From Urechidicola sp. (GTDB lineage: Bacteria; Bacteroidota; Bacteroidia; Flavobacteriales; Flavobacteriaceae): a stretch of DNA of 64,000 nt. The position numbers and the translations under genes are program-made. The notes beneath the pieces were generated by a model, which ran no database searches, had not been told where the DNA came from, and saw nothing but the letters and a program-made list of their open reading frames with translations. The DNA is taken from NCBI GenBank assembly GCA_028599075.1, contig JAQRMW010000041.1:1-64000 (forward strand), in the 5' to 3' direction. The number at the start of each line of letters is the position of its first letter. Position 1 is the stretch's first letter. Positions 5,954 to 63,750 of this stretch are shown in pieces.

Positions 5954-5980
5954 AGATTTAATCAAAAGAATAGATAGTAA

Positions 5981-6050
5981 TGTCTTTCCCGAGAAATCGG
6001 GAATCCATTTTTGGGTAAGTATAGATTCCTGCCTTCGCAGGAATGACAAG
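5981..6050. repeat. REPIN-like inverted doublet (TGTCTTTCCCGA..TCGGGAATC / GATTCCTGCCTTCGCAGGAATGACA)
   Basis: two short palindromes in inverted orientation with about 17-nt spacer. Confidence 0.8.
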
Positions 6051-18073: not shown

Positions 18074-19462
18074 TTATAAATGTATTACTTCATCATAAGC
18101 AGCAGCAACTGCTTCCATCACTGCCTCACTCATTGTTGGGTGTGGGTGAATTGATTTTAAAATTTCATGACCTGTAGTTTCTAATTTACGAGCAACAACT
18201 GCCTCGGCAATCATATCTGTAACTCCGGCACCAATCATATGGCATCCTAACCATTCACCATATTTAGCATCAAAAATTACTTTTACAAAACCATCTGGTG
18301 TTCCAGCTGTTTTTGCTTTTCCAGATGCTGAGAACGGAAATTTCCCAACCTTTAATTCGTAACCTGCTTCTTTAGCTTTTGCTTCTGTCATTCCTACACT
18401 TGCAATTTCTGGTGTTGCATACGTACAACCCGGAACGTTGCCATAATCAATAGAATCAACATGTAATCCAGCTAGTTTTTCTACACAAGTAATTCCTTCA
18501 GCAGAAGCAACATGTGCTAAAGCTTGACCTGGAACTACATCGCCAATAGCATAATATCCTGGTATATTTGTTTGGTAGAAATCGTTTACCAAAATTTTAT
18601 CACGGTCCACAACAATACCAACATCTTCCAATCCAATATTTTCGATATTCGATTTTATTCCAACAGCAGATAACAAAATATCTGCTTCTATTTTCTCTTC
18701 TCCTTTTTTGGTCTTTACAGTTGCAACAACTCCTTTTTTAGAAGTGTCAACTGACTCCACAGAAGAATTAGTCATCACTTTGATTCCAGATTTTTTTAAT
18801 GATCGTTGAAATTGTTTTGAGATATCAATATCTTCTACTGGAACCACATTAGGCATAAATTCAACAATAGTTACATCAGTTCCCATCGAATTGTAGAAAT
18901 GAGCAAACTCAACACCAATAGCTCCAGAACCAACAACAATCATCTTTTTTGGTTGCTCAGGAAGTGTCATTGCTTCACGATATCCAATTACTTTTTTACC
19001 ATCTTGTGGTAAACTTGGTAATTCTCTACTTCTAGCACCAGTTGCAATAATAATATTGTCTGCGCTGTATTCAGTTGTCTTTCCATCAGCATCCGTAACA
19101 TCAACTTTTTTACCAGTTTTAATTTTTCCGAAACCGTTAATCACATCAATTTTATTTTTTTTCATTAAAAATTGAACACCTTTACTCATACCATCTGCAA
19201 CACCACGACTTCGTTTTATGATAGCATCAAAATCTTTGTCAATAGCTTCTGCTTTTAATCCATACTCATCTACATGTTTTAAATAATCATATACCTGAGC
19301 ACTTTTAAGCAAAGCTTTAGTTGGGATACAACCCCAGTTTAAGCAGATGCCTCCAAGGTTTTCCTTTTCAACAATTGCAACTTTAAATCCGAGTTGTGAA
19401 GCTCTAATTCCGGTTACATATCCTCCAGGGCCAGATCCAATTATGATAATGTCGTAGTTCAT
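18074..19462 (-). CDS. lpdA: dihydrolipoyl dehydrogenase
   Basis: ORF; GGICLNWGCIPTKALL, AIGDVVPGQALAHVAS, HPHPTMSEAV. Confidence 0.97.
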   Translation of the reverse strand: MNYDIIIIGSGPGGYVTGIRASQLGFKVAIVEKENLGGICLNWGCIPTKALLKSAQVYDYLKHVDEYGLKAEAIDKDFDAIIKRSRGVADGMSKGVQFLMKKNKIDVINGFGKIKTGKKVDVTDADGKTTEYSADNIIIATGARSRELPSLPQDGKKVIGYREAMTLPEQPKKMIVVGSGAIGVEFAHFYNSMGTDVTIVEFMPNVVPVEDIDISKQFQRSLKKSGIKVMTNSSVESVDTSKKGVVATVKTKKGEEKIEADILLSAVGIKSNIENIGLEDVGIVVDRDKILVNDFYQTNIPGYYAIGDVVPGQALAHVASAEGITCVEKLAGLHVDSIDYGNVPGCTYATPEIASVGMTEAKAKEAGYELKVGKFPFSASGKAKTAGTPDGFVKVIFDAKYGEWLGCHMIGAGVTDMIAEAVVARKLETTGHEILKSIHPHPTMSEAVMEAVAAAYDEVIHL

Positions 19463-19540
19463 TTTGTGTATTTTTTGTTGATTGTAAATCTTATTTTTTC
19501 GATTGCAAATTTAGTGAATAAATCTGAAAATAATTTAAAA

Positions 19541-19582
19541 CATCTTTGCGAAGTAAATTTAAATTTACTGTGGCAATCTCAA
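19541..19582. repeat. interspersed repeat CATCTTTGCGAAG...GGCAATCTCAA
   Basis: related in sequence to 21561-21648. Confidence 0.55.
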
Positions 19583-19619
19583 GTTTTTATATTGATATGA
19601 CTATGTCTAATATTCCAAT

Positions 19620-19732
19620 GTCAGTTCGAGTGATTTTCGATTTAAGGAGAAAATAGTATTGAGAACTTTTCTATAACTTCTCGATACATTTTGATTTCGA
19701 TTTTCATCTCAATCAAAACACTCGAAGTGACG
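19620..19732. mobile_element. gene-less nested inverted repeat (MITE-like) related to the 61732-62140 element
   Basis: outer arms GTCAGTTCGAGTG/CACTCGAAGTGAC, inner arms TATTGAGAA/TTCTCGATA. Confidence 0.6.
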
Positions 19733-19741
19733 AAATTTGTG

Positions 19742-21541
19742 CTACATTCTTTCAGGAACCTCAATTCCTAATAAATTAAAAGCCGATTTAATAGTATCTC
19801 CTACTTTTTTAGACAAGCGTGTTCTAAACACTTTTTCTTCGAGATTTGTACTCCCTAGAATTGGCACTGATTGATAAAATGAATTGTATGCTTTTACCAA
19901 TTCATAAGTATAATTAGCTATTAATGCAGGACTGTGATTTTTAGCTCCAGCTTGAATCACTTCAGGAAACAACTGTAATTGTTTAATCACTTCTTTTTCC
20001 TTTGGATGAAGATTAACTCCTGAAGTTTCTTGATTAAAATCAAATTCAGCTTTTCTTAAGATTGACTGAATTCGAGCATAGGTGTATTGTATAAAAGGCC
20101 CTGTGTTTCCGTTAAAATCGATCGACTCTTTAGGATCGAATAAAATTCTCTTTTTAGGATCTACTTTTAATATATAATACTTTAATGCTCCTAAGCCGAT
20201 GGTTTTATATAGGCTTTCTTTCTCTTCGTTTGAATAGCCTTCTAGTTTTCCTAATTCTTCAGAAATATCTCTTGCGGTGTTTACCATTTCAATCATTAAA
20301 TCATCTGCATCTACTACTGTGCCTTCTCTTGATTTCATTTTACCTGAAGGTAAATCTACCATTCCATAAGACAAATGAAAAAGGTTGTCTGCCCAATCAA
20401 ACCCTAATTTTTTAAGAATTAGAAAGAGTACTTTAAAGTGATAATCTTGTTCGTTACCAACGGTATATGTCAATCCTTTTAAATCATAATCTTTAAAACG
20501 TTCAATCGCAGTTCCGATATCTTGGGTCATATAAACGGCTGTGCCGTCAGAACGTAAAACAATTTTTTCGTCCAAGCCTTCATCTGTCAAATCAATCCAA
20601 ACAGAACCATCGTCTTTTCTGTAAAATACTTCAGATGCTAATCCGTTTGTTACGACATCTTTCCCTAAAAGATAAGTGTTACTTTCGTAATAATTCTTGT
20701 CAAAATCAACGCCCAATTCTTTGTATGTTACATCAAAACCATCATATACCCATTGGTTCATCATTTTCCAGAGGTCAACAGTTTCTTTATCACCAGCTTC
20801 CCATTGAAGCAACATCTTTTGTGCTTCGAGTAGGAGTGGAGCTTGTTTTTTTGCTTCTTCCTCTGTAGCGCCAGAAGCAATTAAATCAGCTATTTCTTTT
20901 TTATATTCTTGATCAAATTTTACATAATAATTACCTACCAACTTATCACCTTTTAATCCGGTACTTTCTGGAGTTTCATTATTTCCGAAAAGTTTCCACG
21001 CCAACATGCTCTTACAAATATGGATTCCACGGTCATTGATAATCTGAGTTTTGTAAACGGTGTTACCTGCAGCAGCAATAATCTCAGCAACAGCATATCC
21101 TAAGAGGTTATTTCTAATATGCCCTAAATGCAGAGGTTTGTTTGTGTTGGGTGAAGAATACTCAACCATTACTGATTTATCTGAAGGGTTTGGGTTTGTA
21201 ATACCAAAATTATCAGAGGTAAATATTTTATTGAAATCATTGATAAAAGTAGTGTTAGCAATTACCAAATTAAGGAACCCTTTAACCACATTAAAGTCAG
21301 ATACTTCTATAACATTTTCTTTTAAATACTCACCAATCTTGGTTCCTATTTCAACAGGATTACCTTTTACAAAACGTAAAAAAGCAAATACAACAATAGT
21401 AATATCTCCTTCAAAATCTTTACGAGTTGCTTGGAACTCTACCGAATTAATTTCAGTATTATAAATAGATTTGAATGCTTCTTTTACGGCAGTTTCAATG
21501 GTATTTTGAATATTCATCTTGATAAAAAAATTGAAATGCAA
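19742..21541 (-). CDS. argS: arginyl-tRNA synthetase (start probably 21517)
   Basis: ORF; VEYSSPNTNKPLHLGHIRNNLLG. Confidence 0.97.
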   Translation of the reverse strand: MHFNFFIKMNIQNTIETAVKEAFKSIYNTEINSVEFQATRKDFEGDITIVVFAFLRFVKGNPVEIGTKIGEYLKENVIEVSDFNVVKGFLNLVIANTTFINDFNKIFTSDNFGITNPNPSDKSVMVEYSSPNTNKPLHLGHIRNNLLGYAVAEIIAAAGNTVYKTQIINDRGIHICKSMLAWKLFGNNETPESTGLKGDKLVGNYYVKFDQEYKKEIADLIASGATEEEAKKQAPLLLEAQKMLLQWEAGDKETVDLWKMMNQWVYDGFDVTYKELGVDFDKNYYESNTYLLGKDVVTNGLASEVFYRKDDGSVWIDLTDEGLDEKIVLRSDGTAVYMTQDIGTAIERFKDYDLKGLTYTVGNEQDYHFKVLFLILKKLGFDWADNLFHLSYGMVDLPSGKMKSREGTVVDADDLMIEMVNTARDISEELGKLEGYSNEEKESLYKTIGLGALKYYILKVDPKKRILFDPKESIDFNGNTGPFIQYTYARIQSILRKAEFDFNQETSGVNLHPKEKEVIKQLQLFPEVIQAGAKNHSPALIANYTYELVKAYNSFYQSVPILGSTNLEEKVFRTRLSKKVGDTIKSAFNLLGIEVPERM

Positions 21542-21766: not shown

Positions 21767-21813
21767 TGTTCTCGATACAAAATTCTTTATCAAGAATTTC
21801 ACTCGAACTGACG
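21767..21813. repeat. half copy of the TGTTCTCGATACAA...CACTCGAACTGACG element
   Basis: matches right arm of 61732-62140 element. Confidence 0.65.
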
Positions 21814-27690: not shown

Positions 27691-27712
27691 CTATTATTTA
27701 TTTAATGATAAG

Positions 27713-27737
27713 GTCTCGACTGCGCTCGACCAGACAA
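27713..27737. repeat. half repeat GTCTCGACTGCGCTCGACCAGACAA
   Basis: same family as 41455-41522. Confidence 0.65.
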
Positions 27738-27790
27738 ATAATTTTTTGTTTAAAGAATAAAATCAAAAAGAATTTATTCAGGCTGCAAAT

Positions 27791-40129: not shown

Positions 40130-40162
40130 ATTGTATTTGTTTGAATTAATATATTATTTTCA

Positions 40163-40210
40163 ATCAACCATCAACCATCAACCATCAACCATCAACCATC
40201 AACCATCAAC
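40163..40210. repeat. heptamer tandem repeat (ATCAACC)6.9
   Basis: six perfect units plus ATCAAC, abutting a TAG stop. Confidence 0.97.
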
Positions 40211-41082
40211 TAGCTCACCAACTTATCTAAAGTATATTTTATCAAAGCTTCAACTGGTTTGTATGGGTCTGCACTAAATGTACCATTTGCTCTGTTTGCG
40301 ATAATCGCATTCATTGATAGTGCATTGTGACCTAATAGTTGTGATAAACCATAAATTGCTGAGGTTTCCATTTCTAAGTTGGTAACGCTTGTCCCATTAA
40401 AATCAAAACTATCAATCTTATTGTTTAAGCTAGGGTCTTGAATTGCTAAACGCAACACGCGACCCTGTGGGCCATAAAACCCAGGAGCAGTAGCAGTAAA
40501 CCCTTGAAATACTTCAGGGCCACTTAATTTATCAATCAATACTTGGCTACCCTTAATAATATAGGGTCTCGCTTTATTGTTGCTCCAATTTGTTTGCTTG
40601 ATGAATGCATCTTCAATTTCGGTTTCAAAAATTGACTCAGCTACATAAGAATGTAGTAAACCATCCAATCCTAATCCGTATTTACCCATCACAAAACTAT
40701 CGACAGGAATATCATTTTGAAGCGAACCAGAAGTACCAATACGTACAATATTTAATTGGGTAAAATCTTTTTTGATTGTTCTAGTTTCTAAATCGATATT
40801 TACCAAAGCATCCAATTCGTTGATTACAATATCAATATTATCTGGGCCAATTCCGGTAGAAATTACCGTCAGTCTTTTTCCTTTATAGGTACCTGTAATC
40901 GTTCTAAATTCTCTTTTTTGTATATCGAATTCAACCGAATCAAAATGTTTGGTAATTTTTGGAACTCTATTTTGATCACCAACAAAAATGACGTCGTTAG
41001 CGATATGCTCTGGTTTTAAATTTAGGTGATAAATACTTCCATCGGGGTTCAGAATTAATTCTGATGCTGCTATTTTACTCAT
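40210..41082 (-). CDS. nucleoside phosphorylase
   Basis: ORF; FVGDQNRVPKI, STGIGPDNIDIVINEL, VTNLEMETSAIYGLSQ. Confidence 0.92.
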   Translation of the reverse strand: MSKIAASELILNPDGSIYHLNLKPEHIANDVIFVGDQNRVPKITKHFDSVEFDIQKREFRTITGTYKGKRLTVISTGIGPDNIDIVINELDALVNIDLETRTIKKDFTQLNIVRIGTSGSLQNDIPVDSFVMGKYGLGLDGLLHSYVAESIFETEIEDAFIKQTNWSNNKARPYIIKGSQVLIDKLSGPEVFQGFTATAPGFYGPQGRVLRLAIQDPSLNNKIDSFDFNGTSVTNLEMETSAIYGLSQLLGHNALSMNAIIANRANGTFSADPYKPVEALIKYTLDKLVS

Positions 41083-41454: not shown

Positions 41455-41522
41455 TGTCAGGGCGAGCTCAGTCGAGACCTTATTAATTTTTGTTTTGTTC
41501 TCGACTGCGCTCGAACAGACAA
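41455..41522. repeat. inverted repeat TGTCAGGGCGAGCTCAGTCGAGACC...TTCTCGACTGCGCTCGAACAGACAA
   Basis: facing arms with AT-rich spacer. Confidence 0.75.
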
Positions 41523-41559
41523 TATTATATTTTAGTTATGAATTATAAATGTTCAAAGC

Positions 41560-47809: not shown

Positions 47810-47834
47810 TTTCTAGTTTTTTGTCAGGTTAAAA

Positions 47835-47860
47835 TTGTCTGTTCGAGCGTAGTCGAGAAC
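47835..47860. repeat. half repeat TTGTCTGTTCGAGCGTAGTCGAGAAC
   Basis: same family as 41455-41522. Confidence 0.7.
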
Positions 47861-53423: not shown

Positions 53424-53542
53424 CGTCAGTTCGAGTGATTTTTCTTAATAAAATAAAGAAAAATTGTATCGAGAGCAGATAAAACACGATTCTCGATATA
53501 AATTTCACTTACTATCGTCGTGAAATTCACTCAAATTAACGA
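53424..53542. mobile_element. gene-less nested inverted repeat (MITE-like) related to the 61732-62140 element
   Basis: outer CGTCAGTTCGAGTGA / TCACTCAAATTAACGA, inner TTGTATCGAGAGC / ATTCTCGATATAA. Confidence 0.6.
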
Positions 53543-61731: not shown

Positions 61732-62140
61732 CGTCACTTCGAGTATTTTGGCACACAAAGTGATGCCAAAATGTATCGAGAAGTTATTTGAACTTCTTCT
61801 TTGCTAAATTAGGTAATCGATTGAATTCATCATTTATCAATGTTTCCTTTTTGGATTTTGACCATTTTTTTAATTGCTTTTCTTTTTCGATTGCCATATT
61901 AATATCTGTAAATTCTGCATAGAATTTTAATTATATAGGTCTTCTATAATATGTATAACTTCCTTTATATGACCCGTTTTGATGTGAACGAACTCTACTT
62001 GTTAAATCTGATGTAACCCCTGTATAGTATGTTCCATCAGAACATAATAAGATATATACATAAGAAACTTTCATTTTTCATAGTTAACAATGTTCTCGAT
62101 ACAATTTTCTCCCTGTGTCGAAAACCACTCGAACTGACGA
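61732..62140. mobile_element. candidate GIY-YIG-containing mobile element bounded by nested inverted repeats
   Basis: outer CGTCACTTCGAGT...CACTCGAACTGACGA; inner ATGTATCGAGAAG...TTCTCGATACAAT; ORF fills interior. Confidence 0.6.
61784..62074 (-). pseudogene. GIY-YIG nuclease family protein with one in-frame stop codon
   Basis: manual translation MKVSYVYILLCSDGTYYTGVTSDLTSRVRSHQNGSYKGSYTYYRRPI*LKFYAEFTDINMAIEKEKQLKKWSKSKKETLINDEFNRLPNLAKKKFK; stop TAA at 61931-61933. Confidence 0.88.
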
Positions 62141-63610: not shown

Positions 63611-63625
63611 TGCTAATTTATGAAT

Positions 63626-63653
63626 GGATTCCCGTTTGCACGGAAAAGACAGT
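63626..63653. repeat. REP-like unit TGGATTCCCGTTTGCACGGAAAAGACAG
   Basis: inverted copy of TGTCTTTCCCG..GGGAATCCA family. Confidence 0.7.
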
Positions 63654-63681
63654 TTTATTTAATTAGTTACTTTTTATTTAC

Positions 63682-63733
63682 ATCAACCATCAACCATCAA
63701 CCATCAACCATCAACCATCAACCATCAACCATC
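63682..63733. repeat. heptamer tandem repeat (ATCAACC)7.4
   Basis: seven perfect units plus ATC. Confidence 0.97.
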
Positions 63734-63750
63734 GGTCTTCTGTCTCCCGT

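Follow-up and report, generated by a model that had tools for sequence, protein, structure and literature searches.

The 64,000-nt stretch of a Urechidicola sp. contig analysed here (the window) carries a gene-less, intergenic element of 113 bp at positions 19620-19732. It consists of two inverted, hairpin-forming units separated by a 10-nt spacer, and its architecture is REPIN-type, i.e. two inverted REP-like hairpins. In order, the element is lettered GTCAGTTCGAGTG-(ATTTTC..GAAAAT)-AGTATTGAGAAC-TTTTCTATAA-CTTCTCGATACA-(TTTTGATT..AATCAAAA)-CACTCGAAGTGACG. It is bordered on one side by the end of an ORF at 19742-21541 (-) and on the other by the start of another, of 462 aa, at 18074-19462 (-); both were read by eye, and we take them to be argS and lpd, respectively.

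The same layout recurs on the other strand at 61733-62138, where a GIY-YIG nuclease gene occupies the spacer. A sequence-only reading had described the first element as a gene-less copy, of roughly 110 nt, of the second, with the same order of arms. This description is borne out by the 113 bases without a gene and by an own-genome search, in which the arms align beyond chance: arm 1 is 84% identical to the reverse strand of 62089-62138 along 50 nt (E 8e-9), and arm 2 matches 61732-61787 at 75% (E 1.7e-4). The features are listed below; X1-Y1 denotes a pair at the stem base of the unit, and bit scores refer to covariance model R1, built from 53 units.

19620..19732, no strand: gene-less dimer of inverted 47-nt and 55-nt units, trailing G of the GACG end included
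19620..19666, + strand: unit 1, X1-Y1 type G-C (57.9 bits; covariation), comprising the GTCA tag, GTTCGAGTG, the apical hairpin and AGTATTGAGAAC
19633..19654, + strand: apical hairpin of unit 1 (ATTTTC..GAAAAT), from covariation and fold calculation
19667..19676, no strand: spacer TTTTCTATAA, whose place is taken by the nuclease gene in gene-bearing copies
19677..19731, - strand: unit 2, X1-Y1 type C-G (64.1 bits), comprising the GTCA tag, CTTCGAGTG, the apical hairpin and TGTATCGAGAAG
19689..19718, - strand: apical hairpin of unit 2, from the inverted repeat 19689-19701/19706-19718 and fold calculation
21768..21812, - strand: single unit (59.3 bits), kept at the orthologous place in the related genome G006
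53425..53540, no strand: second gene-less dimer of the window, a G-C unit and a decayed A-T unit with a 12-nt spacer
61733..61783, + strand: C-G unit on the 3' side of the nuclease gene (59.9 bits)
61790..62074, - strand: GIY-YIG nuclease gene with one in-frame TAA, 78% identical to the intact protein of contig C272
62092..62138, - strand: G-C unit on the 5' side of the nuclease gene (63.0 bits)

Fold of the repeat unit

Each unit combines a (C)GTCA tag, which faces outward, with a bipartite hairpin. Its order is the GTCA tag, X1-X2-T-C-G-A-G-T-G, an apical hairpin of variable length and N-G-T-A-T-C-G-A-G-A-Y2-Y1. In the fold, X1-X2-T-C forms the stem base with G-A-Y2-Y1, where X1-Y1 can be G-C, C-G or A-T and X2-Y2 can be T-A or G-C. 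The stem base is followed by CGAG facing CGAG, an asymmetric TG/NGTAT loop and the variable apical stem, and the bipartite stem extends to the last base of the unit. The CGAG/CGAG motif between the two pairing blocks is nearly invariant; in unit 1 (19620-19666, +) the second CGAG carries one C-to-T change. From nucleic-acid chemistry, the facing CGAG motifs could form tandem G-A mismatches. The base just 5' of GTCA is a C in 54 of the 61 units of the own genome and a T in 88 of the 112 units found elsewhere. The sequence-only reading named the nested inverted repeats; the small hairpin inside each arm, which it left undescribed, is essential to the unit.

Pairing within the unit is strongly backed by compensatory change. 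Units were gathered by means of a regular expression that did not couple X1 to Y1. Over 53 units, 98.8% of the cells are paired and 95 double changes are counted, compared to 24 in shuffles, none of which (0/500) matched the real set. When the partners were slid, pairing dropped to 34-65%. The own-genome model alignment, which is itself fitted to the model, is 97.5% paired. Folded as single-stranded DNA, a 114-nt stretch containing the dimer reaches -24.6 kcal/mol (z = -5.3), and none of 200 shuffles was equally stable. Two separate unit hairpins were rejected as the thermodynamic minimum, since pairing in the best fold calculated for the dimer runs between the units instead.

The nuclease and its repeats

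Four small GIY-YIG genes and one long one (contig C142) are present in the genome. Two of the small genes, the intact C272 copy and C228:61847 with its one TAA, are flanked by R1-type units; the C4 gene is flanked by CGAGCGCAGTCGAG repeats and the C163 gene by GTCATTTCGACCGAAGGGAGAAATC repeats. The region 61732-62140 had been read as a GIY-YIG element from the sequence alone. The gene is indeed there, but with its single in-frame TAA this copy is a pseudogene, and the intact nuclease is encoded elsewhere in the same genome, on C272. In the gene of the full-length copies PF01541 scores 66.1 bits (cut-off 22.6, E 3.6e-18), and among 16 aligned intact proteins Y5, Y7, Y17, G19, R27 and E65 are invariant. 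These are catalytic-type residues of GIY-YIG enzymes. By sequence the nuclease matches UPF0213 GIY-YIG proteins of known structure (PDB 1zg2, E 2e-12; PDB 1ywl, E 2e-8). The partner nuclease belongs to one GIY-YIG subfamily, which ends in a C-terminal LPNLAKKKF.

One unit type is tightly linked to this one subfamily. A search with the C272 protein in 121 genomes of the family gave 30 loci that were surveyed for adjoining units: R1 units lie within about 150 bp of the gene at all 16 loci with at least 59% identity to the C272 protein, and at none of the 14 loci with at most 58% identity. Those 14 distant paralogues have other C-termini, e.g. LQILSECRNATHYKY, and most of them are accompanied by other TGTCA-tagged repeats. 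The link was also followed among GTDB relatives with 65-82% identity (80 loci from Flavobacterium, Tenacibaculum, Maribacter, Lutibacter, Winogradskyella, Aquimarina and others). At each of the 80 a unit lies no more than 160 bp away, and at 73 the gene has units on either side. The inward layout of unit, gene and unit is found at 41 of them, in many genera; the remainder show other orders, often within arrays. In the family survey, ten genomes with at least 10 units yielded no close nuclease, so the repeats can persist without it.

Throughout the phylum, up to 18 scored GIY-YIG matches occur per genome. Significant inverted repeats surround the gene at 19 of 31 sampled phylum loci, many of them TGTCA- or GTCA-tagged; at some loci (e.g. 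those adjacent to tRNA genes) the inverted repeats are unrelated. A diverged unit, GTTGCCCGAGTGG..TATCGAGGGCAAC, was seen at locus L202 (genome G413) around a GIY-YIG gene ending in LPQLSKKDF. It keeps the CGAG/CGAG motif, and its stem base is now GTTGCC/GGCAAC; it is possibly a link between repeat families.

Copies, sites and dimer types

The core GTCASTTCGAGTG occurs eight times in the window at up to 2 mismatches, against 0.67 expected, a count reached in none of 100 shuffles. In the genome as a whole (3.36 Mb, 291 contigs), further copies are plentiful, with 38 BLAST matches to the element and 62 units matched by R1. The 61 mapped units fall into 44 sites, none of which overlaps an ORF according to a simple ORF caller. 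These sites lie between co-oriented genes (27), between divergent genes (8) or between convergent genes (5), with 4 unclear. There are 13 inward dimers in the genome, with a central loop of 5-18 nt in gene-less copies versus 306-308 nt around the gene; 35 of the 61 units stand outside such dimers. Within the family, R1 units were found in 61 of the 121 sampled Flavobacteriaceae genomes (60 of 120 genera), at 1 to at least 49 units per genome. In G321 and G378 the units are arranged in tandem arrays. Long arrays in which successive unit dimers stand about 14-17 nt apart are seen at L114-L118 (G321) and L124 (G378), whereas the copies of the own genome are scattered.

The two partners of a dimer usually differ in X1-Y1 type. 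This is the case in 12 of the 13 own dimers and in 39 of 40 at other loci of the family, many of the latter being repeats within arrays and hence non-independent. Of the inward gene-bearing copies, 34 of 41 are mixed and 7 are of one type. The mixing of types is thus a tendency, and a rule by which single-type dimers would never occur was discarded. A mixed dimer has one mismatch in its unit-to-unit pairing. A similar preference for mixed dimers was described in other tagged repeats by Di Nocera et al., who suggested protection from hairpin-cutting enzymes (PMC3733652). A fixed left or right identity of the units relative to the gene was rejected as well, as the G-C unit is upstream in the own copies and the C-G unit in most other genomes.

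The distribution is patchy. The element is absent from the argS-lpd gap in nine congeners, i.e. all same-genus genomes in which the argS region was found; some of these contain other GTCA-tagged repeats in the gap. The 61733-62138 copy is absent from G006, where the flanks are 88-90% identical; G006 does retain the single unit at 21768, including an intact apical stem. The L004 dimer is retained by G004 and missing from G006. In general, dimers occupy unrelated intergenic sites that differ between congeners. With flanks of no more than 85-90% identity, exact junctions and empty sites are unreadable. At the place of the gene-copy insert G006 reads TTGACAG, which would fit a GTCA target but is a single case and no proof of one. 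Where a relative lacks a copy, the copy may also have been lost.

Other repeats share the window. A second family, GTTCTCGACTGCGCTCGA..CAGACA, is present at 41497-41527, 47830-47860 and 27698-27741, and its relatives flank the different GIY-YIG gene at C4 (L031) and related loci (L199-L209). Inverted copies of a CGTC/dRS3-like, TGTC-tagged repeat ending in GGAATCCATT lie at 5971-6009 and 63623-63661; similar repeats sit in the argS-lpd gap of G006 (L038) and G002 (L046). The copy at 5971-6009 adjoins a Flavo-1 RNA (RF01705, 5871-5961) that scores just over the gathering score and is the only Rfam match in the 64-kb window. Arrays of a 7-nt CAACCAT unit are found far apart, at 40144-40224 and 63663-63743.

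Probable mobilization of the dimer, and related systems

Directly observed are a structure of two units, a fold backed by compensatory change, a multicopy and patchy intergenic distribution, the close association of this unit type with one GIY-YIG subfamily, copies in which the nuclease gene lies between two units, and a related genome in which the gene-bearing copy is missing from the corresponding place. The data show a matched nuclease-repeat pair that behaves like a mobile element. From the sequences we infer transposition, and the 113-bp element is probably a non-autonomous, REPIN-like dimer that is mobilized in trans by its GIY-YIG nuclease. In the proposed mechanism, the nuclease would recognize the folded unit in single-stranded DNA (e.g. 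the lagging-strand template) and cut at or near the tag. The pair of units, with or without the gene between them, would then be copied or moved, and gene-less dimers would spread in trans via the intact nuclease of C272. Single-strand cutting of the folded unit is suggested by the selection on the unit fold and by the single-strand cutting reported for the related Ssn nucleases. The C-terminal LPNLAKKKF is a candidate recognition determinant, as the tail changes together with the repeat type. Several points count against such a mobile dimer: many units are single (the 35 of 61 above), ten unit-rich genomes show no close nuclease, a copy missing from a relative may have been lost there, and the calculated best fold pairs unit with unit and not within units.

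The Ssn nuclease of Neisseria and its NTS repeats reportedly provide chromosomal cutting or DNA-uptake control sites. A comparable recognition system without transposition, in which copies grow by recombination and slippage, would fit the enzyme superfamily and the kind of repeat partner, the conservation of the unit at 21768 between species and the tandem arrays of other genomes. We nevertheless consider it unlikely, given that many genera have the gene enclosed by two units (41 inward layouts) and that the dimers are scattered over unrelated intergenic sites that differ between congeners, which requires some way to reach new sites. An RNA element kept for host regulation, be it a terminator, an attenuator or an mRNA-stabilizing hairpin, is improbable. 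Its strong fold and the location of 32 of the 40 classifiable sites downstream of at least one gene would suit such a role, yet 8 sites lie between divergent genes, the argS-lpd gap of the congeners lacks the element, and the link to the nuclease would be left unexplained. A terminator or known RNA was rejected, with no G+C-rich hairpin plus T run (intrinsic terminator) at 19400-19850 and no Rfam match at 19620-19732.

The sequence-only reading had offered a MITE or an internal deletion derivative. What stands of this is a gene-less member of a multicopy family. A classical MITE, which arises by deletion from a DDE transposon that has terminal inverted repeats, is likewise short and AT-rich with inverted-repeat ends and many intergenic copies. 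However, no target-site duplication or direct repeat was found at the 13 own dimers, the full-length copies with the same ends carry a GIY-YIG nuclease and not a DDE enzyme, and units also occur singly, each with its own internal fold. It was rejected on the missing duplications and the GIY-YIG gene, and we give it very little credence. Internal deletion of a gene-bearing copy is possible, yet the spacers keep no clear gene remnant. Hardly any credence at all is left for a REPIN that is mobilized by a RAYT (Y1 tyrosine transposase). The general architecture is alike and the genome encodes one Y1_Tnp protein, but no unit lies within 1.5 kb of this sole Y1_Tnp gene, and the reading was rejected on that ground; no Y1 gene bounded by units was seen. 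Moreover, the tag is (C)GTCA and not GTAG, and it is the GIY-YIG gene that is flanked by units in the 80 relatives.

A broader and more tentative proposal is one that we hold to be rather doubtful as yet: small GIY-YIG nucleases may be stand-alone mobilizers of REP-like dimers, each subfamily being matched to its own folded unit via the C-terminal tail. If true, they would supply the enzyme reported as missing from CGTC-tagged repeats, and a transposition system based on a GIY-YIG nuclease would run parallel to RAYT/REPIN with unrelated chemistry. Bacterial genomes widely contain short GTC-tagged palindromes, and the question of what spreads them can be put to a direct test with one protein and one oligonucleotide. 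The present case offers an intact enzyme, gene-bearing copies, gene-less dimers, a fold backed by compensatory change and a unit next to the nuclease gene at 80 of 80 loci. New structure-specific DNA cutters might also come from such matched pairs of nuclease and repeat.

Among the nearest known systems is Ssn, small GIY-YIG single-strand nucleases that reportedly act with NTS/dRS3 repeats in Neisseria and other bacteria (Nature Communications 2025). The pairing of GIY-YIG enzymes and repeats as such is reportedly published for Ssn. Both systems combine a small GIY-YIG enzyme with a multicopy, GTC-tagged palindromic repeat, and in both the nuclease gene is accompanied by its own repeat family (here at 80/80 loci, and at 16/16 versus 0/14). 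The present unit differs in being bipartite, with a CGAG/CGAG stem base and a variable apical hairpin. In addition, the gene is enclosed in the dimer here, gene-less mixed dimers are common, and single-strand cutting is putative.

In CGTC-tagged REPs a stem of 8-9 bp carries a loop of 4-5 nt, a short unpaired tail mostly fits CCA, and a dedicated transposase gene is reported to be lacking (Di Nocera et al. 2013, PMC3733652). They share with the present units the CGTC/TGTC tag, inverted dimers, an intergenic location and, in several families, the preference for mixed dimers (PMC3733652). The present units differ in their bipartite stem, their linked nuclease and the lack of an unpaired CCA-type tail. 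REPIN/RAYT systems (background in PMC3116915 and PMC8266576) likewise have a non-autonomous form of two inverted REP-like hairpins and an autonomous form in which the gene is bounded by the same hairpins; there the enzyme is a Y1 HUH transposase and the tag GTAG, instead of GIY-YIG and GTCA. Among the papers searched, none was found that joins GIY-YIG with REPs. The UPF0213 proteins of known structure (PDB 1zg2, 1ywl) match the nuclease in sequence, and the LPNLAKKKF tail marks the present subfamily. Compared to these systems, the bipartite unit with its CGAG/CGAG base appears to be new, as do the enclosure of the gene within the dimer throughout a large family, repeat types that separate according to nuclease subfamily (marked by the C-terminal tail), and the common occurrence of gene-less mixed dimers.
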